This document shows, piece after piece, positions 5,146 through 19,509 of a DNA stretch of 64,000 bases (its first letter is position 1; every line of letters starts with the position of its first letter). Origin of the DNA: Alphaproteobacteria bacterium (lineage in GTDB: Bacteria; Pseudomonadota; Alphaproteobacteria; Ferrovibrionales; Ferrovibrionaceae); contig JAFKFH010000007.1 in NCBI GenBank assembly GCA_017307375.1, forward strand, positions 186,001 to 250,000. Direction: 5' to 3'. The position numbers and the translations under genes are program-made. The notes beneath the pieces were generated by a model, which was given only the letters and a program-made list of their open reading frames with translations, ran no database searches and was not told the origin of the DNA.

Positions 5146-5922
5146 TCAGGCAGGCAGCCTAGCCGGCAATTGGTTGATAAAGGATGACAAAGCGGTGAGC
5201 GTCGCCTGCGGCTGGTCGCGATGGGGCGAATGGCCGCAATCGGGCAGCAGCACGAGATCGCCGCCGGTCACCCGCGCCACCGTCTCGACCTGCGCCGCCG
5301 TACCGTATTCGTCGCCTTCACCCTGCAGGGCCAGCACCGGGACGGTGATGTGGGGCAGGAATTCCTCGATGTTCCAGGCACGGAAGCGGGGATCGAGCCA
5401 GGCGTCGTTCCAGCCGCGGAAGGCCGTGTCGACGTCGGCATGGTGGCGGGCGAGGCGGTCGCGCAGATCGCCGGTCTCCCAGGCGACGCGGGCCATGGCG
5501 ATCGACCCCGTCGCGACCTCCTCGACAAAGACATGCGGGGCCATCACCGCCACCCCGATCAGGTCGGGCCGGGGGCCCGAACCGGCGTGGATCAGCGCGA
5601 TCGAGGCACCGTCGGAGTGGCCGACCAGGACATGCGGTCCGATCGCCAGCCGGTCCAGCAGCTCAGGCAGCACCTCGCGGGCTTCGACATGCATGTAGTC
5701 GAGCGGTCGGGGCAGCGGACAGGGCGCCGAGTTGCCGTAGCCGTAGCGGCTGTAGACCAGCACGCCGCAGCCGGTGGCACGCCCCACGGCCGCGGGAAAA
5801 TCGCGCCACAGCGAGATCGAGCCGAGGCCTTCGTGCAGAAAGACCAGCGTCGGCCGGCCAGCCGCCGGCGGCGCAGCCCAGACGTAGTCGATCGGCCCGC
5901 CGGCCAGGGCCAGCGTACTCAT
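5146..5922 (-). CDS. Alpha/beta hydrolase of the benzoate-CoA ligase cluster
   Basis: A 258-residue alpha/beta-hydrolase fold protein. The oxyanion segment FLHEGLG is at about residue 28, the nucleophile elbow is GHSDG with Ser103, and the likely acid and base are Asp in GEGDEYG and His in DCGHSPH near the C-terminus. It has no signal peptide, so it is cytoplasmic. It overlaps the thioesterase gene by 4 bases and sits in an operon with benzoate-CoA ligase. Hydrolases of this kind accompany box clusters in other bacteria. It may act on an aromatic ester or ring-fission intermediate, but the substrate is inferred only from context. Confidence 0.82.
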   Translation of the reverse strand: MSTLALAGGPIDYVWAAPPAAGRPTLVFLHEGLGSISLWRDFPAAVGRATGCGVLVYSRYGYGNSAPCPLPRPLDYMHVEAREVLPELLDRLAIGPHVLVGHSDGASIALIHAGSGPRPDLIGVAVMAPHVFVEEVATGSIAMARVAWETGDLRDRLARHHADVDTAFRGWNDAWLDPRFRAWNIEEFLPHITVPVLALQGEGDEYGTAAQVETVARVTGGDLVLLPDCGHSPHRDQPQATLTALSSFINQLPARLPA

Positions 5923-6362
5923 CCCGCGGTCACCTTGCGGCCCTCGTAGGCTTCGAAGGCGGCGACCAGCGTCGCCGGCACGGGCGTCGACTTGTGCGTT
6001 GCCTGATCGGTGTAGACCCAGGTGATCTGGCCGCCGACGCGCAGATCGTCCCGGCCCTTCGGATGGACCTCGACCCGATGGACCAGCGACGAGCGGCCGA
6101 TGCGCTCGATGCGGGCGCAGATCTCGATCTCCTCGTCGAGCCGCACCGGCGCGCGATAATCCAGCTCGACCTTGACGACGTGGAAGTCGGCGCCGGTTTC
6201 CTTGGGATGGTTCAGCGGATCGAATCCCATCTCGCGGACATAGTCGGTCAGCGCATTGTCGAAATAGGTCAGGTAGTTGCCGAAGAACACGATCGACTGC
6301 GAATCGATCTCGGCGTAACGGGTGCGGTGATGCAGGCTGAACTTGAAATCGGCGCGTGCCAT
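5919..6362 (-). CDS. 4-hydroxybenzoyl-CoA thioesterase family (hotdog) acyl-CoA thioesterase
   Basis: A 147-residue single hotdog domain. The conserved entry motif RYAEIDSQSIVFFGNYLTYFD contains the acidic residue expected in the 4HBT active site; the long helix after it and the VELDYRAPVRLDEEIEI strands complete the fold. Family members hydrolyse aromatic or aliphatic acyl-CoAs to free CoA. In a benzoate-CoA ligase operon a plausible role is rescue of CoA trapped in dead-end aromatic thioesters. ATG 6362 is preceded by GGGGAGA at good spacing. It lies 33 bases downstream of the ligase gene. Confidence 0.88.
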   Translation of the reverse strand: MARADFKFSLHHRTRYAEIDSQSIVFFGNYLTYFDNALTDYVREMGFDPLNHPKETGADFHVVKVELDYRAPVRLDEEIEICARIERIGRSSLVHRVEVHPKGRDDLRVGGQITWVYTDQATHKSTPVPATLVAAFEAYEGRKVTAG

Positions 6363-6395: not shown

Positions 6396-7955
6396 TTATT
6401 GGCTCATCTGCCTCAGCTTGAAGCGCTGGATCTTGCCGGTCGCCGTCTTGGGCAGCGCGTCGACGAATTCGATCCAGCGGGGATATTTATAGGGTGCCAG
6501 CCGCGCCTTGACATAGGTTTTCAGCGTATCGGCCAGCGCTGCATCGGCCGAGACCCCGTCGCGGACGACGACATAGGCCTTCGGCTTGACCAGATCGTCG
6601 GCATCGGTCGCGCCGATCACCGCGACTTCGAGCACATGCGGCTCGGTCATCAGTGCCGATTCCACCTCGAAAGGCGAAACCCAGATGCCGCCGACCTTCA
6701 GCATGTCGTCGGACCGGCCGCTGTAATGCAGGTAGCCGTCTTCGTCGCGCAGGTACTTGTCGCCGGTACGCGTCCATTCGCCCTGGAAGGTCGCGACCGA
6801 TTTCGGCCGGTTGTTCCAGTAGCCGATCGCGGCCGACGGCCCGCGCACCACCAGTTCGCCGACCATGCCCGGCGGCAGTTCCTGTCCCGCCTCGTCGACG
6901 ATGCGGCAGTCATAGCCCGGCACCGGGCGGCCGGTCGAGCCGGCGCGCACATCGCCCGGCCGGTTCGACAGGAATATGTGCAGCATCTCGGTCGAGCCGA
7001 TGCCGTCGAGAATCTCAAGGCCGAAGCGGTCCTGCCAGCGGCGCAGGATGTCCTCGGGCAGCGCCTCGCCCGCCGAGACGCAGAGGCGCAGGCGGTCGGA
7101 GCTTTCGTCGCGGCCGAGGGCGGGTTCGGCCAGGATGGAGTTATAGAGCGTCGGCACCCCGAAGAAGGCGGTGGGCCGATGTGCCTTCAGCACGCGCATC
7201 ACCGCCTGCGGCGTCGGCCGCTCTGCCATCAGCACCGTGGTCGCGCCGACATGCAGCGGGAAGGTCATGGCATTGCCCATGCCATAGGCGAAGAACAGCT
7301 TGGCGGCCGAGAACATCGTGTCGTCGGGGCTGAGGCCCAGTACACCCTCGCCGTAGAGCACGGCGGTCTGCACGAGGTCGCGATGCAGGTGCATCGCGCC
7401 CTTCGGGTTGCCGGTCGATCCGGACGTATAGAGCCAGAAGCCGACATCGTCGGCCGTGGTCGGCGCCGCCTGCAACTGGTCGCCCGAGGTGGCGAGCAGT
7501 TCGTCCAGCGGCCGCACCGCGCCGGGCGGGCGGCCCGAGATCAGCACTTCCTTGACGAAGGGCTGCTCGCCGAGGATCGCCCTGAACTTCTCGAGCAGCA
7601 TGTCGGAGACGACGAGGACGCGCGCGCGGCTGTCGCGCAGCATGAAGTCGTAGTCGTTGGGCGTCAGCAGCGTATTCACCGGTACCGGTACCGCGCCGAT
7701 CTTCATCGCACCCCAGAAGAAGGCGATGAAGTCGATACCGTCGAGCAGGGCCAGCATCACCCGCTGTTCCATCTGCACGCCTTTTTCGCGTAGCAGGTTG
7801 CCGGCCTGGTTCACCCGCCTGGCCAGTTCGGCATAGCTGTAGCGGCCGCGGTCGTCGATGACCGCGATCTTCTCGGCCCGGCCTTCGGCCAGGTGGCGAT
7901 CGATGAAGTGGCTGGCGGCGTTGTAGTCCCGCGGCAGGTCGACGGGCTCGGCCAT
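6396..7955 (-). CDS. bclA: Benzoate-CoA ligase
   Basis: A 519-residue ANL-superfamily adenylating enzyme: benzoate + ATP + CoA to benzoyl-CoA + AMP + PPi. Visible signatures are the P-loop-like YTSGSTGNPKG, the benzoate-CoA-ligase type segment AAKLFFAYGMGNAMTFPL, the A5 region GIGSTEMLHIF, the hinge YSGRSDDMLKVGG and the C-terminal catalytic lysine in KTATGKIQR. Length fits the family (about 520-535). It is the central gene of the flavodoxin-ligase-thioesterase-hydrolase operon opposite boxR, whose benzoyl-CoA effector is this enzyme's product. Related 4-hydroxybenzoate or 2-aminobenzoate ligases cannot be excluded. Confidence 0.9.
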   Translation of the reverse strand: MAEPVDLPRDYNAASHFIDRHLAEGRAEKIAVIDDRGRYSYAELARRVNQAGNLLREKGVQMEQRVMLALLDGIDFIAFFWGAMKIGAVPVPVNTLLTPNDYDFMLRDSRARVLVVSDMLLEKFRAILGEQPFVKEVLISGRPPGAVRPLDELLATSGDQLQAAPTTADDVGFWLYTSGSTGNPKGAMHLHRDLVQTAVLYGEGVLGLSPDDTMFSAAKLFFAYGMGNAMTFPLHVGATTVLMAERPTPQAVMRVLKAHRPTAFFGVPTLYNSILAEPALGRDESSDRLRLCVSAGEALPEDILRRWQDRFGLEILDGIGSTEMLHIFLSNRPGDVRAGSTGRPVPGYDCRIVDEAGQELPPGMVGELVVRGPSAAIGYWNNRPKSVATFQGEWTRTGDKYLRDEDGYLHYSGRSDDMLKVGGIWVSPFEVESALMTEPHVLEVAVIGATDADDLVKPKAYVVVRDGVSADAALADTLKTYVKARLAPYKYPRWIEFVDALPKTATGKIQRFKLRQMSQ

Positions 7956-8033: not shown

Positions 8034-8504
8034 TCAGGCGGCTTCGGCGCGCTCCAGTTCGCTCACCCAGCCGCGGGCCCATTCGACACCGGCATCCTCG
8101 GCCATCGTGCCACCCGACGCATTGTGCTCGAGCCGGGCGCCGACCGCACGGGCGCCCAGCCCGGCCAGCAATTCATCGAACTGCCTGCCCCCGGCATTGA
8201 AGGTGTCGCCGTAGGTCGAGTCGCCCAGGCCGATCACGCCGTAGCGGCGGCCGGTCAGATCGGGGCGGGCGGCCTGCACCGCCTCGAAGAAGGCGCGGGC
8301 ATTGTCGGGCACGTCGCCCTGGCCGTAGGTCGAGGTGCAGATCAGGAATACGCCGGGCCGCTCGAAAACCGCGGCGTCGAGCGCATCCATCATCAGGATC
8401 TCGACCGGATGGCCGGCTTCCTCCAGCACCTTGGAGACGTCGCCGGCGACGAATTCGGCGGTGCCCGTCATGGTTCCGACCAGAATGGTGATAGGCTCGC
8501 CCAT
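8034..8504 (-). CDS. MioC-like flavodoxin
   Basis: A 156-residue flavodoxin domain. The FMN phosphate loop is VGTMTGTAE near residue 10, the isoalloxazine loops are TSTYGQGDVPDN and GLGDSTYGDTF. ATG 8504 (MGEP) is chosen because the strand-1 motif starts immediately after it; a further upstream in-frame start at 8534 would run across the BoxR-type operator. It is the first gene of the benzoate-CoA ligase operon. Flavodoxins carry low-potential electrons, so it could feed a box-type epoxidase or another reductase, but no oxygenase gene is present in this window. Confidence 0.88.
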   Translation of the reverse strand: MGEPITILVGTMTGTAEFVAGDVSKVLEEAGHPVEILMMDALDAAVFERPGVFLICTSTYGQGDVPDNARAFFEAVQAARPDLTGRRYGVIGLGDSTYGDTFNAGGRQFDELLAGLGARAVGARLEHNASGGTMAEDAGVEWARGWVSELERAEAA

Positions 8505-8529: not shown

Positions 8530-8543
8530 TGCAATATAGTGCA
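8530..8543. promoter_or_regulatory. Candidate BoxR operator, TGCA-N6-TGCA
   Basis: TGCA at 8530-8533 and TGCA at 8540-8543 are separated by six bases (ATATAG), inside an A/T-rich stretch between the flavodoxin start (8504) and boxR start (8569). Flanking bases 8524-8529 and 8544-8549 extend the dyad partially (4 of 6). TGCA repeats of this spacing are the recognised operator element of the paralogous BzdR/BoxR repressors in Azoarcus. One site would control both divergent genes. Confidence 0.7.
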
Positions 8544-8568: not shown

Positions 8569-9465
8569 ATGGCAAGAGGCCAATTGCAGGAAGGTCAACC
8601 GATTGCCGACGCGGCCGCGGCGGAGGAAGCCAGGCTGCTGGCCGAGCTGGGCGACCGCGTGCGGCAGGCCCGCGCGCGCCGGGGCATGACCCGGCGCATC
8701 CTCTCGAATGACTCCGGCGTTTCCGAACGCTATCTGGCCCAGCTCGAAGGCGGGCAGGGCAACATCTCGATCCTGCTGCTCCGGCGGATCGCCCGGGCGA
8801 TGGGCATGCCGCTGGCCGATCTGTTGCGCGAGGGGCCCGAGCCTTCGGTCGAACTGATGCTGCTGACCGAGCAGCTGCGGCGGCTCGGCCCCGCCGAACT
8901 GGTCGAAGCGCAGGCCGTCCTGGCCGAGCGGTTCGGCCAGGACCGCGAGCGGCGCCGGCGCATTGCCCTGATCGGGCTGCGCGGTGCCGGCAAGTCGACG
9001 CTGGGACGCCTGCTGGCCGAACGGATGGGGGTGCCGTTCGTGGAACTGGCCCACGAGATCGAGGCCGATGCCGGCATGTCGCTGGCGGAAATCTTCGACC
9101 TCTACGGCCAGGCAGCCTATCGCCGGCACGAGCGCCGCGCGCTGGAGCGGGTGGTGGCCGAGCACCCGGCGGCGGTGATCGCCACCGGCGGCTCGCTGCC
9201 CTCGGAAACCGGCACCTACGAATACCTGCTGTCGAACTGCTACACGGTCTGGGTGACGGCTGCGCCGGAGGAGCATATGGGCCGCGTGATGGCCCAGGGC
9301 GACATGCGGCCGATGGCCGGCAACGAGGAGGCGATGGCCGACCTGCGCGCCATTCTGGCGACCCGCGCCGCGCTCTACGGCAAGGCGGATGCCCGTCTCG
9401 ACACGTCGGGCAAGCCGGTGGCCGACGCCGTTGCCGAACTGGCGGCGCTTGCCGCCCAGCAGTGA
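8569..9465 (+). CDS. boxR: BoxR-type benzoyl-CoA-responsive repressor (XRE domain plus shikimate-kinase-like domain)
   Basis: A 298-residue two-domain regulator. Residues about 22-86 form an XRE helix-turn-helix (TRRILSNDSGVSERYLAQLE). Residues about 130-290 are a shikimate-kinase-like domain with Walker A GLRGAGKST (136-144) and the ATGGSL and RPMAGN segments. This architecture is diagnostic of BoxR/BzdR, where the kinase-like domain has become the benzoyl-CoA sensor and inducer binding releases DNA. It is divergent from the benzoate-CoA ligase operon with a matching TGCA-N6-TGCA site between them. Downstream by 32 bases lies the deleted boxC, so boxR probably once headed a boxRC-type operon. 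Confidence 0.93.
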   Translation: MARGQLQEGQPIADAAAAEEARLLAELGDRVRQARARRGMTRRILSNDSGVSERYLAQLEGGQGNISILLLRRIARAMGMPLADLLREGPEPSVELMLLTEQLRRLGPAELVEAQAVLAERFGQDRERRRRIALIGLRGAGKSTLGRLLAERMGVPFVELAHEIEADAGMSLAEIFDLYGQAAYRRHERRALERVVAEHPAAVIATGGSLPSETGTYEYLLSNCYTVWVTAAPEEHMGRVMAQGDMRPMAGNEEAMADLRAILATRAALYGKADARLDTSGKPVADAVAELAALAAQQ

Positions 9466-9497
9466 AATATAATTCTGTCCATTCGGGAGATCCGCCG

Positions 9498-9968
9498 ATG
9501 GCCAAGGCTTGCGTCGATTTCCGCACCGCGCCGTCGCGCTATCGCCACTGGAAGCTTTCGATCGATGGCGCCGTCGCAATCCTTGCCCTGGACGTTGCCG
9601 AAGACGGCTTGTTGTCGCTGGACGACCTGATGGAGGTCGAGGATCGCAAGTTCCGCATCGGCCGCGAACTCGACGCCGAGGAGGCGCTCGAGATCGGCCT
9701 CGTCACCTTCACCCCCGACGATATCGACTGGGCGAAGGAGGTCAGGCTGGCGATCGACGAGCGGACGACATTTTCGCCCGATGCCTTGGCCGGCATGGAA
9801 GCCTCGTTGCGCTTCGGCGGACCGGAGACGATGGAAAGCAAGATCTTCGCCCGCCTCACCGCCTGGCAGAACTGGATCTTCCAGCGTCCGAACGCGATCG
9901 GCGAACAAGGTGCCCTCAAGCTCTACGGCACTGGCCGGCGTCCCGGGTTCGATCGCCGCCGGGTGTAG
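9498..9968 (+). pseudogene. boxC: boxC remnant: benzoyl-CoA-dihydrodiol lyase with a large in-frame internal deletion
   Basis: BoxC is normally about 550 residues with two crotonase-like halves and opens the epoxidised benzoyl-CoA ring. This frame encodes only 156 residues. The first ~37 (CVDFRTAPSRYRHWKLSIDG) match the BoxC N-terminus and the last ~110 (DAEEALEIGLVTFTPDDIDW, then MEASLRFGGPETMESKIF to the FDRRRV end) match its C-terminus. Everything between, roughly 390 residues including the catalytic glutamates, is missing, with the junction near nucleotide 9610-9640 and the frame preserved. ATG 9498 has a GGGAGA ribosome site. It could still be translated but cannot be a working lyase. 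Confidence 0.88.
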
Positions 9969-10072: not shown

Positions 10073-11080
10073 ATGAATGTCGCAAGGTCATCCGTTCTCG
10101 CCGTGACGATCTGCGGCCTGCTGCTGCTGCTTGCATTCCAGGCTTGGCCGGAGACTATTTCGTCGCCAGGTGCGGTCGCGGCGAACGCGTTGCCGGGCGC
10201 CGGTCCGGCGGGGCTCGGCGCGTTGTTGATGCTGATCCTGGCGCATGGGGCGGTCCGCCGGTCGCGCCGCGTTTCGCCGTCCCGCTGGCGATCCTGGACC
10301 CGCGGCAGGCAGCGGTCGCGGATCGGTACCCGCAGGCCGATCTATGGCGCAAGGCGGCCGCGGCGCGGCCGATTGACCGAAGCCACCGCGTCCGGCGAGC
10401 GACGTCGCCTGCAGGCGATGATGGCCGCGCTCGACGGTTTGGCCGACGAGATCGAGGCGCCGTCACGCCATGTCGCGGACAACCTGCGATACCTGCAGGG
10501 CTGTGCCGATGATCTGCTGGCGCTGGCCCGGATGGGCCGGGAGGCCGATGTCGAGGCGCTGGCCGACGATATCCCGGCGACGATCGATCAAAGCCTTGAA
10601 GCCGTCGCCCGGATCATCCAGGTCGGCCAGGCGATCGGCGAGGTCGTCGCACCGGCAGCGCGCGAGGGCGGTGCGCTCGATCTGAACCAGGTGATCCGGG
10701 CGGCCGTGACCGCGACCGGCCGTCACTGGCGGTACGCCGCCCAGGTCGACCTCGACCTGGATCCCCGCCTGCCGCCGTTGCGCGGTGACCTTGGCGATCT
10801 GCGGCGCCTGCTGATCGTGGTCATCACCCGCACGGCCCAGGTCATCGACCGGCGCGGCGCCCCCGAACTCGGCCAAATCCGGATCAGTACCGGCGTGACG
10901 GGCGAGATGGTCGAACTGTCGATCGCCGATTCCGGTGCTGCCATGCAGGGTTGGGATGCGGTTCTGCGCTCGGCCGAGATCGTGCGCCTGGGCGGGCAGG
11001 TCGAGGTCGACGCGGCTGCCGGGGCGGTGCTGCGCATCCTGCTGCCGCTTCAGAAGGCCGGCGCCATGATGGCGACCTGA
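10073..11080 (+). CDS. Degenerate histidine-kinase-like membrane protein (pseudo-kinase paralogue)
   Basis: A 335-residue protein with two N-terminal hydrophobic helices (about residues 7-24 and 44-60), a basic linker, and a C-terminal half that aligns end to end with the kinase core of the LOV kinase at 11675-14953. Key residues are lost: the acceptor motif AHEINTP has become ADEIEAP (Asp125 in place of His), the N-box asparagine is gone, the G1 motif DSGVGIP reads DSGAAMQ, and the G2 ATP lid is absent. The frame is intact, so it is unlikely to be a random pseudogene. It could be a dominant-negative partner or scaffold. ATG 10073 has GGGAGG nine bases upstream. Confidence 0.75.
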   Translation: MNVARSSVLAVTICGLLLLLAFQAWPETISSPGAVAANALPGAGPAGLGALLMLILAHGAVRRSRRVSPSRWRSWTRGRQRSRIGTRRPIYGARRPRRGRLTEATASGERRRLQAMMAALDGLADEIEAPSRHVADNLRYLQGCADDLLALARMGREADVEALADDIPATIDQSLEAVARIIQVGQAIGEVVAPAAREGGALDLNQVIRAAVTATGRHWRYAAQVDLDLDPRLPPLRGDLGDLRRLLIVVITRTAQVIDRRGAPELGQIRISTGVTGEMVELSIADSGAAMQGWDAVLRSAEIVRLGGQVEVDAAAGAVLRILLPLQKAGAMMAT

Positions 11081-11632: not shown

Positions 11633-11674
11633 CCTTGCGTGACGCCCGTCCGGGCACACCAGGGAGCATGGCCG

Positions 11675-14600
11675 ATGAAGCCTGGCCGCTCGATCATCGT
11701 TCTGTTCGCCGCCTGCGCTGTGGCGCTGGCCCTGCTGACCGTTGCCAGCATCGTGCTGACCTGGCAGCACGTGGACCGCGCCGCGGCGGCACGGCACGTC
11801 AGGATGGAACAGGCAGCCGACCTGGCGGGACTGCGGACCGCGCTTGCGATGCAGTCATGGCTCGGACCGGCGCAAACCGCCGCGGCGATGGCAGGGGCCG
11901 TGGCCTCCGGCCCTGCCGCCATCGCGGCGATGGCCGAGGTCCTGCCGGCGGATGTCTTCGAGACGATCGCCATCGCGGTCGGGCCTGGCGCCACGCTGCT
12001 GTCGGGCCGCGGCACGCGCCCGGCAACGGACTGGATTGCAGGCGACCCCGTCGCCCTGTCCCTTGCCGCCCAGGCGCGCCAGGGGGCCGGGCCGGTGGTC
12101 TCCGATCCGGTCACCCTCGACGGCCTCCGCCTGCTGGCGGCGTTCCTGCCGCTCCGTCCCGTTCCAGGCGATGCCGACGGGGGGGCGGGGCTCGCCGTCG
12201 TTCTCGTCGGTCTCGACCGGTTGCTGGCCGGTACCGGCTTGGGCGAGTCAGGCGACGGCATACGCGTCGCCGTCCGCGGCGTCGGCCGGGACGGCATGCC
12301 GGGTGCGCTGATCGTCGGTGATCCGGCGTTGCCGGAACAGGCACCGGCGATCCGGGAGGCGCACTTCCCGGGCGGCGCCTGGACGATCGCGGCTGTCGCG
12401 CCGCCCACGGATTCGCTGCGGGATGCGGTGCTGCGCGACACCGCACCGACGATTGCGGGCGGGGCCGCGGTCCTCGTGCTGGTCGTCCTGTTCCTGCGCA
12501 GCCGCGGCAGCCAGAAGGCGGCGATCGCCAATGCGCGGATCAGCGCAGACGTTGCCGCGATCAAGCTGGGCGACGCCCAGGCCCAGCTGCGCAACGCCCT
12601 GAATACGATGACCGAGGGCTTTGCCTATTTCGACCGGGACGACCGCCTGGTGATCTGCAACGAACGCTATCGCCAGATGTATGCGATTTCGGCCGACCTG
12701 ATCCGGCCGGGGGCGCGCTTCGAGGATATCGTCCGCCACGGTGTCGCCCACGGCCAGTACCCCGATGCCGCATCCGATCCGGAGGGCTTCGTCGCCGAGC
12801 GCCTTCGCGTTCATCGCGAGGCGCGTGGCCGGATCGAGCTGCGGCTGTCGGACGACCGCTGGATGATGGTCGACGAGCATCGCACGCCCGACGGCGGCAT
12901 CGTCGGGGTCCGGACCGACATCAGCGAACTGAAGCGCCGCAGCCTCGAGATCGAAGACCAGCAGATTCTGTTGCGCGCGACACTCGAAAGCCTGAACGAC
13001 GGCGTCGCCGTGTTCGACAGCGGCGGGCAGCTGGTCCTCTGGAACTCGCGCTTTGCCACGCTGGCCGACATTGCGCCGACCGCGCTGGAGCCCGGCATAG
13101 CGCTCGCCGAGGTGGTCTCGCTGCAGGGCGAGGACGGCGTGCTCAGCGCCGACGACGTCGCCTTTGCCGTCGGTGCCGGTCATCTCGACGAGTCGCGGCT
13201 GGCGCTCGGCCGCCGCGCCTGCCGGTCTGGCCGGGTGGTCCGCCTCGACCTGGGCTGGGCGGCCGGCAGCCGCACGGTCCTGACGCTGGTCGACGAGACC
13301 GAGGCCGAGCAGGCGGCGCTGGCGCTTGCGGCCTCCGAGCATCGGTTGCGCGGCATCCTCGAGATCAGTCCGATCGGCACCGTCGTGCTCGATCGTGAGG
13401 GGCATGCGCTGTTCTACAACGAACGATACCGCGAAATGCTGGGGCTGGCGGACGCCGACATGGCGTCCTATGTCGCCCCCTCGTCGTTCGAGGATCCCGA
13501 AGATCTGGCCTATCTGCGGTCGGCGCTGCGCGAGCATGGTGTCCAGGCCAGCCGCGAAATCCGGGTCCGGCGCCCCGACGGCGCAGGCTTCTGGGTATCG
13601 CTGTCGGCGCGTAATGTCGATTTCGACGGTCGCAAGGCCACGATCGTGCATGTCTTCGATATCACCGAGCTGAAGCAGGTCGAGGAAATGCTCGGCGAGA
13701 TCAACAAGGAGCTGGAATGGCGCGTGCGGGAGCGGGTGGCCGAGCGCGACCGTACCCTGGCCGAACTGCGCGCCGAGATGAAGCGCAGCCAGCTGCTGGC
13801 GGCAGTGATCGAAAGCAGCCCGTCGAGCATTACCATCGCCGACGCGCAAGTCGACGGCCTGCCGCTGATCTATTGCAACCAGGCGTTCACGCTGATGACC
13901 GGGTATACCCAGGCCGACGTGGTCGGGCGCAATTGCCGCTTCCTGGCCGGTCCGGAGACCGATCCGGCGGCGCGCCAGGCCTTGCGCACTGCCTTGGCCG
14001 AGGGCCGCCAGATCCAGGTCGAACTGGTCAACTATCGCAAGGATGGGGCGAAATTCCTGTCGCAGCTGACCTTGTTTCCGGTGCGCGGCGATGGCGGCGA
14101 GATCCTGCACTATGTCGGCACCCAGCGCGATGTGACCGAGATCCGCCAGGCCGAAGCCGACCGGGCAGAGATGCAGGCACGGCTGGCCGAGACGACGAAG
14201 TTCGAGGCGCTGGGCACGCTTGCCGGCGGCATCGCGCACGAGATCAATACGCCGTCCCAGTACATCGGCGACAATATCCGCTTCCTGCAGACCAGCATCG
14301 CCGATCTCCTGCCGCTTGCCCTGGCCGCACCCGATCCCGGCCCGGTCGATCTCGAGTTCCTGGCGGTCGAGATGCCTGCCGCGATCGACCAGTGCCTGGA
14401 GGGGATCGAGCGCGTCGCCCAGATCGTCCAGGCGATCAAGGAATTCTCGCATCCGTCCGACAAGAACGTCGCGGCCTTCGACCTCAACCACGCGGTGGAA
14501 TCCGCGGTCACCGTGACGCGCAACCAGTGGAAATACGTGGCCGAGCTCGACCTGTCGCTCGATCCTGACCTGCCGTTGTTCACCGGCAATCAGGGTGAGA

Positions 14601-14953
14601 TCAACCAGGTGCTGCTGAACACCATCGTCAATGCCGCCCACGCGATCGAGGAGCGCCGAACGACCGAACCGGGACGGATAGCGGTATCGACCCGGCTGGT
14701 CGGCGGGGAGATCGAGCTGGCGATCGCCGACAGCGGTGTCGGCATCCCTGCCGATCGGCGCGAGAAGATCTTCGAGATGTTCTATACGACCAAGCCGCCC
14801 GGCAAGGGAACCGGCCAGGGCCTGGCGATTACCCGCACCATCATCGTCCAGCACCATGGCGGGCACATCGAGGTCGAATCGACGCCGGGCCAGGGATCGA
14901 CGTTTCGTTTCCTGTTGCCCCTCGATCCCACGGCGATGCGGGAGGCGACATGA
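11675..14953 (+). CDS. Multi-PAS LOV-domain sensor histidine kinase
   Basis: A 1092-residue kinase. TM1 (about 6-28) and TM2 (about 255-275) flank a periplasmic region; then come three PAS domains (starting near MTEGFAYFD, LNDGVAVFD and SPIGTVVLD), a coiled coil, and a fourth PAS of LOV type. The LOV domain has the photo-adduct cysteine in GRNCRFL (Cys754), the NYRKDG strand and the signalling glutamine in YVGTQRD, though the RFLQ glutamine is Ala. The kinase core has His855 (GIAHEINTP), an N-box (LLNTIVNAAHAI), G1 (DSGVGIP) and G2 (GTGQGLAI). Blue light is the likely input. Start ATG 11675 follows AGGGAG; the stop overlaps the next gene. Confidence 0.88.
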   Translation: MKPGRSIIVLFAACAVALALLTVASIVLTWQHVDRAAAARHVRMEQAADLAGLRTALAMQSWLGPAQTAAAMAGAVASGPAAIAAMAEVLPADVFETIAIAVGPGATLLSGRGTRPATDWIAGDPVALSLAAQARQGAGPVVSDPVTLDGLRLLAAFLPLRPVPGDADGGAGLAVVLVGLDRLLAGTGLGESGDGIRVAVRGVGRDGMPGALIVGDPALPEQAPAIREAHFPGGAWTIAAVAPPTDSLRDAVLRDTAPTIAGGAAVLVLVVLFLRSRGSQKAAIANARISADVAAIKLGDAQAQLRNALNTMTEGFAYFDRDDRLVICNERYRQMYAISADLIRPGARFEDIVRHGVAHGQYPDAASDPEGFVAERLRVHREARGRIELRLSDDRWMMVDEHRTPDGGIVGVRTDISELKRRSLEIEDQQILLRATLESLNDGVAVFDSGGQLVLWNSRFATLADIAPTALEPGIALAEVVSLQGEDGVLSADDVAFAVGAGHLDESRLALGRRACRSGRVVRLDLGWAAGSRTVLTLVDETEAEQAALALAASEHRLRGILEISPIGTVVLDREGHALFYNERYREMLGLADADMASYVAPSSFEDPEDLAYLRSALREHGVQASREIRVRRPDGAGFWVSLSARNVDFDGRKATIVHVFDITELKQVEEMLGEINKELEWRVRERVAERDRTLAELRAEMKRSQLLAAVIESSPSSITIADAQVDGLPLIYCNQAFTLMTGYTQADVVGRNCRFLAGPETDPAARQALRTALAEGRQIQVELVNYRKDGAKFLSQLTLFPVRGDGGEILHYVGTQRDVTEIRQAEADRAEMQARLAETTKFEALGTLAGGIAHEINTPSQYIGDNIRFLQTSIADLLPLALAAPDPGPVDLEFLAVEMPAAIDQCLEGIERVAQIVQAIKEFSHPSDKNVAAFDLNHAVESAVTVTRNQWKYVAELDLSLDPDLPLFTGNQGEINQVLLNTIVNAAHAIEERRTTEPGRIAVSTRLVGGEIELAIADSGVGIPADRREKIFEMFYTTKPPGKGTGQGLAITRTIIVQHHGGHIEVESTPGQGSTFRFLLPLDPTAMREAT

Positions 14954-17351: not shown

Positions 17352-18560
17352 TCAGCGGCCGACATTCGCCGCCGGTCCGGCGGCCAACCCGTTGCCGCCG
17401 TAGAGCCAGGCGACGGTATCGTGCATCTCGTCCTCCGACTTTGCCTGGAGTATCGCGTTGCGCAGCGCCGCGTGCGGTCCGGCCGGGTGGTAGATATGCT
17501 CGCCGATCGCCCGCGACTGCAACTGGACGCGTGCGGTACGCAGGACGCGTTGCCGCCGGTAGGCGTCGAGCGCCGCCGGTACATTGTCGGCCTGCCGGGC
17601 CATGGCGTCGGCCAGGCACACCGCGTCTTCCATCGCCATGCAGGCGCCCTGGGCGAAATACTGCAGCATCGGATGCGCGGCATCGCCGAGCAGGGCGACG
17701 CGGCCGTCGACCCAGCGGTCGACCGGCTCGCGATCGCACAGGACCCAGGCCTTCCAGTTGGTGCCGCGACGCAGGATTTCCTGGGCACGCGGATGGACGT
17801 GATGGAACCCCCTGAAGACCTCCTCGGCATCGACCGGCCGGCCGGCGACCGGCGCGGGCGCGTCGTTATGGTAGGTGACGACCAGGTTGAACAGCTTCCA
17901 GCCCGACAGCGGGTAGTGGACGATATGGCATTTCGGCCCCGCCCATAGGGTCGCCGCGTTCCACCTGAGATCCTCGGGCATCTGGTCGGTCGGAATGACC
18001 GAGCGGTAGGTGGTATGGCCGGAGACCCGCGGGGCGCCGTCGCCGACGACCCTGCGGCGGATGTTCGACCACAGGCCGTCCGCGCCGATCAGCGCCGCGC
18101 CATCGACGCGCGAGCCGTCGGCGAGCAGGGCGGTGACCGCGGTGCCGTCCTGGACATAGTCGGTCACCTCGCTGGCGGTGCGCAGTTCGATCAGCGGATG
18201 CTCGCGGCAGGCTTTCAGGATCACGCCATGGAGATCGCCTCGGTGGATCACCGCATAGGGATTGCCGAACCGGGCGCGAAATTTCTCGGTCAGCGTGACG
18301 CGTTGGATCTCTTCGCCCGACACCGCATCCATCAGCCGCAGATTGTCGATATAGACCGCCATGGCGCGGGCGGTATCGCCGATGCCGAGATAGTCGAAGC
18401 AGTGGAAGGCGTTGGGGCCGAGCTGGATGCCCGCCCCGATCTCGCCCAGGGTCTGCGCCTTTTCGAGCACCCTTACCGCCACGCCCTTGCCCGCCAGGCC
18501 CAGCGCCGCCGCCAGCCCGCCGATTCCGCCGCCGGCAATGATGAAGGGCAATGACGTCAT
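17352..18560 (-). CDS. FAD-dependent aromatic monooxygenase, 3-hydroxybenzoate 6-hydroxylase-like
   Basis: A 402-residue class A flavoprotein hydroxylase. It has the Rossmann GGGIGG at about residue 9, the DG motif GADGLWSNIRR, and the GD motif LLGDAAHPMLQYFAQGACMAMEDA, whose LQY..QGA..A.ED form is typical of 3-hydroxybenzoate 6-hydroxylase and salicylate hydroxylase relatives. The expected reaction is NADH- and O2-dependent ring hydroxylation, for example 3-hydroxybenzoate to gentisate. No gentisate dioxygenase is in the window. ATG 18560 is chosen for its GGGAGG site; an upstream in-frame extension would cross the promoter at 18589-18616. It lies downstream of the RpiR regulator. Confidence 0.82.
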   Translation of the reverse strand: MTSLPFIIAGGGIGGLAAALGLAGKGVAVRVLEKAQTLGEIGAGIQLGPNAFHCFDYLGIGDTARAMAVYIDNLRLMDAVSGEEIQRVTLTEKFRARFGNPYAVIHRGDLHGVILKACREHPLIELRTASEVTDYVQDGTAVTALLADGSRVDGAALIGADGLWSNIRRRVVGDGAPRVSGHTTYRSVIPTDQMPEDLRWNAATLWAGPKCHIVHYPLSGWKLFNLVVTYHNDAPAPVAGRPVDAEEVFRGFHHVHPRAQEILRRGTNWKAWVLCDREPVDRWVDGRVALLGDAAHPMLQYFAQGACMAMEDAVCLADAMARQADNVPAALDAYRRQRVLRTARVQLQSRAIGEHIYHPAGPHAALRNAILQAKSEDEMHDTVAWLYGGNGLAAGPAANVGR

Positions 18561-18588
18561 GATCGGTCCTCCCGCGACATTTTCATTC

Positions 18589-18616
18589 ATCATATTGATA
18601 TTCAGTATACTGTCAA
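18589..18616 (-). promoter_or_regulatory. Promoter for the monooxygenase gene with an internal palindrome
   Basis: Read on the minus strand, TTGACA (18616-18611) is followed after 16 bases by TATGAT (18594-18589), a near-consensus housekeeping promoter about 30 bases from the monooxygenase ATG. The spacer holds a perfect palindrome CAGTATACTG (18603-18612) that overlaps the -35 box by two bases, a natural place for a repressor. Confidence 0.65.
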
Positions 18617-18636
18617 ATAAGCAACACAGGCCCCGG

Positions 18637-19509
18637 TCAGTAGTGAAACAGCCAGAGCTGGCTTTCACTGAGCGCCTTGAGCGCCTCGACCGCGTCCGGC
18701 CGCTCGCGCGCCAGCGTCGTGATCAGGGCATCGGCGACGGCGAAGGCGGCGGTCGGCGAGTTTGGCAGGAAGTTGTTCCTGGCCGGGGCGAACAGGGTCA
18801 TGTCGGCGATGGCGACCAGCGGCGAGGACGGCTTGTCGGTAATGGCGAGCAGCATCGCCTTGCGCTGCTTGGCGAACTTGGCGAGCTCGAGCGTGGAGCG
18901 CGAATAGCGTGGCAGCGAGATGGCGACGACGAGATCGTCGGGGCCGGCCGACAGCATCTGGTTGGAGGCGCGCTCGGGCCCGCCGCGGGCGGTGGCGAAG
19001 ATCACGTCGGCCTCGAGATAGAGCAGCAGGCCGTCCTCGAGAAAGGCGCCGACATGGTGGCTGGCGCCATAGCCGATGATGAAGATCCGGCGCGCCTTGA
19101 GCAGGGCGGCGATGGCGCGGTCGACCGTCGGCTCGTCCAGCGTGGCGATCGCCTCTTCCAGATTGGCCGCCTCGTTGCCGAGCGAGGCGGACATCGTGGC
19201 GAATACCGAGCCGGCGGCGGCGCGGGCGTCGGCCAGCGCCTCGACCGGGGCCAGCGCGACCTTCAGCGCGGCCGAAAGCGCGGTGCGAAAGTCGCCGTAG
19301 CTGGCATAGCCGAGGGCACGGACGAAGCGGGTGATCGTCGCCGTCGAGGTGCCGCTGCGCTCGGCAAGGCCCTCGATCGTCATGGTCGCGGTATCCAGCG
19401 GATTCTGCAGCACGAAGTCGGCGGCCTTGCGATGGCCCTCGCTCAGCGTCGGGTAGACCTTGGCGATGCGATTGGCCAGATCCGTCGTCGGTTTCAACGC
19501 CCGTGACAT
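18637..19509 (-). CDS. RpiR/MurR-family transcriptional regulator
   Basis: A 290-residue regulator with an N-terminal RpiR helix-turn-helix (about 10-85; TMTIEGLAERSGTSTATITRFVRALG) and a C-terminal SIS domain (about 115-250; IFIIGYGASHHVGAFLEDGL, then AISLPRYSRSTLELAK). SIS domains usually bind phosphosugars or other small acidic ligands. It is divergent from the peptide-type ABC importer and directly upstream of the monooxygenase, so it probably controls both. ATG 19509 (MSRALKP) has GGGAAAG upstream; the longer in-frame start would cross the likely operator. Confidence 0.88.
   Translation of the reverse strand: MSRALKPTTDLANRIAKVYPTLSEGHRKAADFVLQNPLDTATMTIEGLAERSGTSTATITRFVRALGYASYGDFRTALSAALKVALAPVEALADARAAAGSVFATMSASLGNEAANLEEAIATLDEPTVDRAIAALLKARRIFIIGYGASHHVGAFLEDGLLLYLEADVIFATARGGPERASNQMLSAGPDDLVVAISLPRYSRSTLELAKFAKQRKAMLLAITDKPSSPLVAIADMTLFAPARNNFLPNSPTAAFAVADALITTLARERPDAVEALKALSESQLWLFHY

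Follow-up and report, generated by a model that had tools for sequence, protein, structure and literature searches.

The 156-residue open reading frame downstream of boxR in the 64,000-nucleotide stretch analysed here (the window) is a remnant of boxC in which the BoxC N-terminus is joined in frame to the BoxC C-terminus, and intact boxC and boxB genes lie on another contig of the same genome, C13. We consider it probable that this stub is a young and most likely functionless remnant of the inherited boxC gene, displaced by an acquired set on C13, and that the benzoate pathway is thereby split over two loci. The relevant features of the window are as follows.

5146-5922, minus strand: alpha/beta hydrolase of the box cluster (abh)
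5919-6362, minus strand: YbgC/FadM-type thioesterase between bclA and abh
6396-7955, minus strand: bclA, benzoate-CoA ligase family, the genome's best match (747.9 bits)
8034-8504, minus strand: MioC-like flavodoxin, a usual box-cluster neighbour in the taxonomic order and a candidate electron carrier
8530-8543, plus strand: putative operator TGCA-N6-TGCA (TGCAATATAGTGCA) between the flavodoxin gene and boxR, the only such site in the window
8569-9465, plus strand: boxR, XRE/shikimate-kinase-like regulator of 298 residues, the only one in the genome over the family cut-off
9466-9497, plus strand: boxR-boxC gap of 32 bases with no TGCA-N6-TGCA site, perfect or with one mismatch
9498-9968, plus strand: boxC remnant, 156 residues (profile match, 2w3p alignment and family alignment)
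About 9606-9617, plus strand: deletion junction at remnant residues 37-40, placed by alignment, the exact base being beyond alignment resolution
9615-9965, plus strand: C-terminal part of BoxC, with 66-79% identity to 15 tails from the order and 55% to the C13 BoxC

The boxC Remnant and Its Deletion Junction

The reading frame and ribosome site of boxC are kept, as the initial annotation had stated: the frame starts with the ATG at 9498, which is preceded by GGGAG, and ends with the last base of the stop codon at 9968 (the open-frame list also gives it from an earlier GTG). A promoter scan found nothing for the remnant. NCBIfam assigns the encoded protein to BoxC alone, and the BoxC profile TIGR03222 matches it in two pieces, the N-terminus corresponding to profile positions 1-34 and residues 44-156 to positions 436-548; with 217.5 bits in all, the protein fails the profile cut-off of 712.3. 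The only solved chain matched is the BoxC structure 2w3p, whose residues 7-67 align with remnant residues 2-64 and residues 451-556 with remnant residues 51-156, the N-terminal likeness fading past approximately residue 40.

To locate the junction, the remnant was aligned with the C13 BoxC and 11 further BoxC proteins from the order. Over the same span a relative from the order (L053) has 545 residues and the remnant 151; the shortfall of about 394 residues, or some 1182 nt, is divisible by three at the nucleotide level and close to the roughly 390 residues estimated at the outset. The active-site Glu pair of 2w3p (positions 146 and 168, a numbering consistent with the alignment) is absent from the remnant, both residues falling in the deleted part. 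The Glu-bearing motifs are GGGYE and SLPE in the alignment of the C13 BoxC with 2w3p. In the available part of PMC4498308, the N-terminal domain of BoxC is reported to carry two active-site Glu residues. Compared with the full-length protein (2w3p), the remnant shares some 38 N-terminal and 117 C-terminal residues as well as the start, the ribosome site and the position after boxR, but has lost the active-site Glu pair along with both crotonase cores. The two-piece profile match, the junction alignment and the loss of both Glu residues together bear out the original claim that the catalytic centre of boxC was lost in frame.

We searched for similar deletions in 16 loci of the order, the C13 stretch, 76 loci of the class and the best 80 loci of a wider scan, which gave 170 BoxC-matching loci besides the window; some of them come from the same genome, and 162 of 169 tails are distinct. 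A single unbroken BoxC match of more than 500 residues was found in 159 of these loci, with a largest gap of 8 residues and, in L211, an internal stop; the other 11 loci are either cut by a contig end (eight) or frameshifted with both parts present (L162, L210, and L259). No comparable internal deletion occurs in any of the 170 loci, including the best 80 of the wider scan, and the window stands alone in this respect. The suggestion that the family might naturally be 156 residues long is contradicted by the 159 unbroken matches. Five other short frames considered as truncated BoxC proved to be contig ends (L140, L172, L184, and L255) or, in the case of L211, a full-length gene containing an internal stop. 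The order consists of one family with 18 genomes in our collection, the source genome included. In 17 of these genomes BoxC is matched with an E value of 1e-25 or better, and in 16 over the cut-off; a second, short BoxC match is found in the source genome alone.

The Inherited box Locus

The usual box cluster of the order has the arrangement abh-bclA-flavodoxin<>boxR-boxC-boxB. Its bclA-flavodoxin<>boxR-boxC-boxB part is present in 12 of 16 loci of the order, with abh seen in 11 (L048 ends within bclA). The exceptions are L059, which has no flavodoxin match, L061, in which bclA adjoins boxC, and L060 and L062 from one genus, which have no boxR, bclA or flavodoxin match beside boxC. The window retains the common arrangement up to the boxC remnant, with the thioesterase gene added. 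Its BoxR passes the BoxR/BzdR family NF006015 (409.3 bits, cut-off 204), and the flavodoxin passes PF00258 (91.6 bits, gathering cut-off 25). A search of the window with a relative's BoxB found no boxB remnant.

Unlike the window, the relatives in the order have no thioesterase match between abh and bclA; distant thioesterase matches (22-26%) occur downstream of boxB in some of them. The gene at 10073-11077, immediately after the boxC remnant, is a degenerate copy of the histidine kinase gene at 11639-14953, 34% identical in the C-terminal part and with similar upstream DNA. It lacks the phospho-accepting His and, unlike the full kinase with its PAS domains, has no Pfam match; it is the second gene here with an N- and a C-terminus but without a middle. 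Further downstream, 17352-18668 on the minus strand encodes an FAD-binding monooxygenase-type protein, possibly of another aromatic degradation route.

An Intact boxC-boxB Set on Contig C13

A search of the genome for a full boxC and boxB returned both over their cut-offs on C13. The boxC gene (C13:370121-371758) scores 890.9-891.2 bits against TIGR03222 (cut-off 712.3) and by alignment retains both active-site Glu positions of 2w3p; boxB (C13:368700-370109) scores about 765 bits (764.6) against TIGR03225 (cut-off 499.1). The genes are arranged as boxC-boxB-reductase, with a flavodoxin gene divergent from boxC. The reductase (L018:9457-10680), encoded directly after boxB, resembles adrenodoxin reductase/FprA over residues 4-399 (1cjc, E 2.2e-63; 1lqt, E 6.3e-54), and its relatives also occur downstream of boxB in loci of the families f57, f61, f66, and f81. 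The two MioC-like flavodoxins of the genome's box loci (window 8034-8504 and L018:13901-14377) are 58% identical. No boxR, abh or bclA lies beside the C13 box genes in the 19-kb stretch covered, its acyl-CoA ligases being distant (29-36% identical to bclA). A second protein of the benzoate-CoA ligase family is encoded at C13:5966-7477 (510.8 bits, cut-off 375.25), about 360 kb from the box set, so dependence on the bclA gene of the window is not certain. ARAGORN found no tRNA genes on C13 (383,861 bases), and a search for RepC in the genome found none.

Since boxC and boxB are intact on C13, the benzoate route is not lost. The proposal of the initial annotation that the box pathway had decayed here is therefore correct for the locus itself, where boxC is gutted and boxB is gone, but does not extend to the C13 genes. 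Its alternative, a functional boxC with boxA and boxB elsewhere, agrees with the sequences of boxC and boxB on C13 and fails for boxA: no protein in the genome exceeds the BoxA (TIGR03224) cut-off, the best reaching 56.3 bits against 459.2.

Different Ancestry of the Two Loci

In sequence comparisons the two box loci have different ancestry. A tree of 52 BoxC tails contains a branch (98/95) that parts the side with the remnant from the side with the C13 protein. The remnant does not fall firmly within its own order in this tree; by path, the row closest to it is L133, from a different family. The terminal branch of the remnant is 0.40, compared with a median of 0.19. The C13 BoxB is 85% identical to the proteins of two genomes of another family (f61), compared with 64-66% for full or nearly full copies from its own order; for BoxC the corresponding values are 77-80 and 55-59%. 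The BoxB tree likewise unites C13 with f61 (SH-aLRT 99). Because of this grouping with another family (85% BoxB identity), the C13 set was probably acquired from another alphaproteobacterial lineage. Both f61 loci hold abh, bclA, flavodoxin, boxR, boxC, boxB, and reductase genes all together; the simplest reading would be acquisition followed by reciprocal loss, of boxC and boxB at the old locus and of boxR, bclA, and abh at the new one.

The mean tetranucleotide distance of C13 is 0.065 to seven pieces of the genome's other contigs, 0.074 to C9, and 0.099 to five f61 pieces, with single 19-kb pieces varying. As the mean composition is that of the source genome and not that of f61, C13 is unlikely to be a contaminant.

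Predicted Operators and Control by BoxR

BoxR and BzdR bind TGCA repeats with a spacer of mostly 6 bases and the consensus ATGCACTATAGTGCAT (PMC6449761, available in part). The single TGCA-N6-TGCA site of the window means little by count, since the chance mean in 64 kb is 0.55. In the 19-kb C13 stretch there are two sites (chance mean 0.20; two reached in 2 of 200 shuffles), both located between the flavodoxin gene and the likely boxC start at about 13762 in stretch coordinates; the longest boxC frame, starting at 13798, overlaps one of them. The motif is found near an end of a box gene in 36 of 92 other box loci. Ahead of boxC in the 16 loci of the order, the site is perfect in six, has a single mismatch in seven and is absent from three. 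L060 and L062 have a perfect site ahead of boxC without an adjoining boxR, as on C13. The operator motifs on C13, together with the precedent of L060 and L062, make it likely that BoxR acts in trans on the C13 box genes through these predicted operators, which were recognised by motif match. In the window, the regulator, operator and ligase had all been described as intact; this holds for boxR, bclA, and the operator on the boxR/flavodoxin side, but the operator ahead of boxC is missing.

Constraint on the Remnant and Age of the Deletion

Among 157 distinct other tails, 35 sites are conserved in 98% or more; the remnant departs at none of them, and the same is true of 143 of the 157. At the 45 sites of at least 95% conservation the remnant has two departures (D80K and E87D), compared with none or one in 144 of the 157. 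The dN of the remnant tail relative to bclA has a median of 0.84 (13 comparisons, range 0.78-1.06), and that of intact relatives in the order a median of 0.70 (range 0.53-1.01) over 63 of 78 pairs, the 15 pairs with bclA dN of 0.12 or less being left out of this baseline. For residues 58-156 the values are 0.58 in the remnant and 0.40 (0.23-0.73) in the relatives. The conserved sites and the dN values indicate that the lineage was under BoxC-like constraint through most of its history, and that any recent excess of change is slight at most. As a rough bound, 35 codons with about 2.2 amino-acid-changing sites each and no change make neutral drift since the loss unlikely to exceed approximately 4% per site. 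These figures bound the age of the deletion only indirectly, and the same conservation could mean continuing selection on the stub. The deletion is thus young, or the tail is still selected; the loss of the operator and of the partner gene, and the lack of such a stub at any other locus examined, speak for a young deletion.

Structure models of the remnant and of the C13 BoxC were made with the same 13 sequences. The remnant model has a mean pLDDT of 48.4 and a pTM of 0.23, and residues 476-559 in the tail of the intact C13 BoxC also score below 50. We dropped the poor model as evidence against a folded stub, since the same tail models badly in intact BoxC.

Possible Electron Supply Without BoxA

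BoxA over the cut-off was found in none of the 18 genomes of the order, of which 16 have BoxC over the cut-off, so the absence of boxA is not a sign of decay. In a sample of 385 alphaproteobacterial genomes, 81 encode BoxB; 13 of these have BoxA over the cut-off, one has a partial BoxA at a contig end and 67 show none, with at most four first-look candidates per genome scored against TIGR03224. The survey of boxB neighbourhoods found 14 boxA loci, in the same 14 genomes. A flavodoxin gene lies within about 9 kb of boxB in 20 of the 67 genomes without BoxA and in none of the 14 with it, and a reductase gene within the same distance in 10 of the 67, nine of them with a flavodoxin. Of the 67, 46 have neither boxA nor a flavodoxin or reductase gene near boxB; a number of the loci surveyed are cut by contig ends. 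Where boxB is flanked by 4 kb or more on either side (69 loci, further relatives from the order included), 11 loci have boxA, 25 a flavodoxin gene, none both and 33 neither. Relatedness explains much of this exclusion pattern: a tree test offered only two independent pairs, none of them informative. No shared neighbour stood out as a donor in the 45 loci lacking boxA, flavodoxin, and reductase genes among the neighbour clusters listed, many of which are shadow frames. Flavodoxins also recur as neighbours of boxR in clusters without boxA.

The role to be filled is the same as that of BoxA, namely supplying electrons to the diiron epoxidase BoxB; unlike BoxA systems, this genome has a MioC-like flavodoxin and an adrenodoxin-reductase/FprA-like protein beside boxB and boxC instead. 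The flavodoxin, sometimes with the adrenodoxin-reductase-like gene, is thus a candidate BoxA replacement, a lead and not a result. Tentatively, and with some doubt, we suggest that BoxB works without BoxA in this genome, in the order and probably in a large share of the alphaproteobacteria, and that it may receive electrons from a dedicated MioC-like flavodoxin encoded beside boxR, in some lineages via an NADPH reductase that resembles adrenodoxin reductase and whose gene follows boxB. The flavodoxin of the window has been kept, though boxC and boxB come from a locus with its own flavodoxin and reductase. Our literature search, which had parts of the sources to draw on, found no paper linking a flavodoxin to box genes, which is not proof that none exists. 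Clusters without an epoxidase subunit have been treated as incomplete, as far as the accessible part of PMC10803450 goes.

Alternative Explanations

The stub may be thought of as a retained small protein, a BoxC tail that binds BoxB or BoxC and modulates the epoxidase. Such a mini-protein would likewise be expected to show an in-frame deletion that spares the start, the ribosome site and the stop, and all 35 near-universal tail sites are intact. Moreover, PMC4498308, in the part available, reports an association of BoxB and BoxC, the latter co-purifying with BoxB and relieving its product inhibition. Nevertheless, D80K, S91T, and T98A each occur in none of 157 other tails, and A45M and A52F, near the junction, in none of 151 and 154, respectively; dN is slightly raised, though it falls within the span seen for intact pairs or near it. 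None of the 170 other loci examined, again counting the best 80 of the wider scan, has such a stub, no operator precedes it, and the resident BoxB on C13 is of another lineage. We therefore regard a retained protein as unlikely. The initial annotation had also raised the thought that the fragment is kept for another reason. This finds no support: amino-acid change in its C-terminal part is slightly above what intact BoxC typically shows, and nothing indicates that the fragment is used.

With an assembly of 41 contigs and a contamination estimate of 2.07%, one may ask whether a misjoin created the deletion, or whether C13 is a contaminant and the real genome has no working set. The junction is in frame within a 478-kb contig, the missing part is not collapsed onto the C13 copy, which is diverged (55% in the tail), and loss of boxB and a different downstream neighbour accompany the deletion; the mean composition of C13, allowing for the variation among single 19-kb pieces, matches the genome's other contigs and differs from f61. 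An artefact in either form is very unlikely. Decay of the whole box pathway in the organism would account for an inherited locus with boxC gutted and boxB gone, and for the lack of a boxA over the cut-off. It is rejected as highly improbable, because the genome has intact boxB, boxC, BclA, and BoxR, and boxA is below the cut-off throughout the order, including the 16 genomes with boxC.

A Benzoate Pathway Probably Split Over Two Loci

We thus return to displacement of the inherited boxC by an acquired set, and infer the following order of events. An ancestor would have carried the usual cluster of the order, abh-bclA-flavodoxin<>boxR-boxC-boxB, and would have gained from another alphaproteobacterial lineage a second boxC-boxB pair followed by a ferredoxin/flavodoxin reductase gene, with a flavodoxin gene in divergent orientation. 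With the new copies working, the old boxB could have been deleted, and the old boxC would have lost about 394 codons in frame, both crotonase cores among them. As boxR, abh, and bclA are all missing from the surroundings of the acquired set, BclA, which would convert benzoate to benzoyl-CoA, is probably still provided by the old locus, as is BoxR, which probably represses both loci via TGCA-N6-TGCA until benzoyl-CoA appears.

An incomplete box locus with a second locus elsewhere is also described for Cupriavidus and P. xenovorans LB400 in the available parts of PMC10803450 and PMC6449761. There, the second locus is described as complete, and the genes missing from the first are different ones (BoxA in LB400), whereas the two loci here complement each other's gaps, and the search for boxA found it in neither.

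The stub itself is ordinary, a pseudogene left behind as a relative from a different lineage took the place of a pathway core. The two half loci probably make one benzoate pathway, joined by one regulator and shared operators; as they seem to form a single pathway, either locus annotated alone would lead to the pathway being called broken. Since most of the BoxB-bearing alphaproteobacteria sampled have no BoxA over the cut-off, studies that require boxA would miss many of them, and the missing electron donor of BoxB becomes a testable question.
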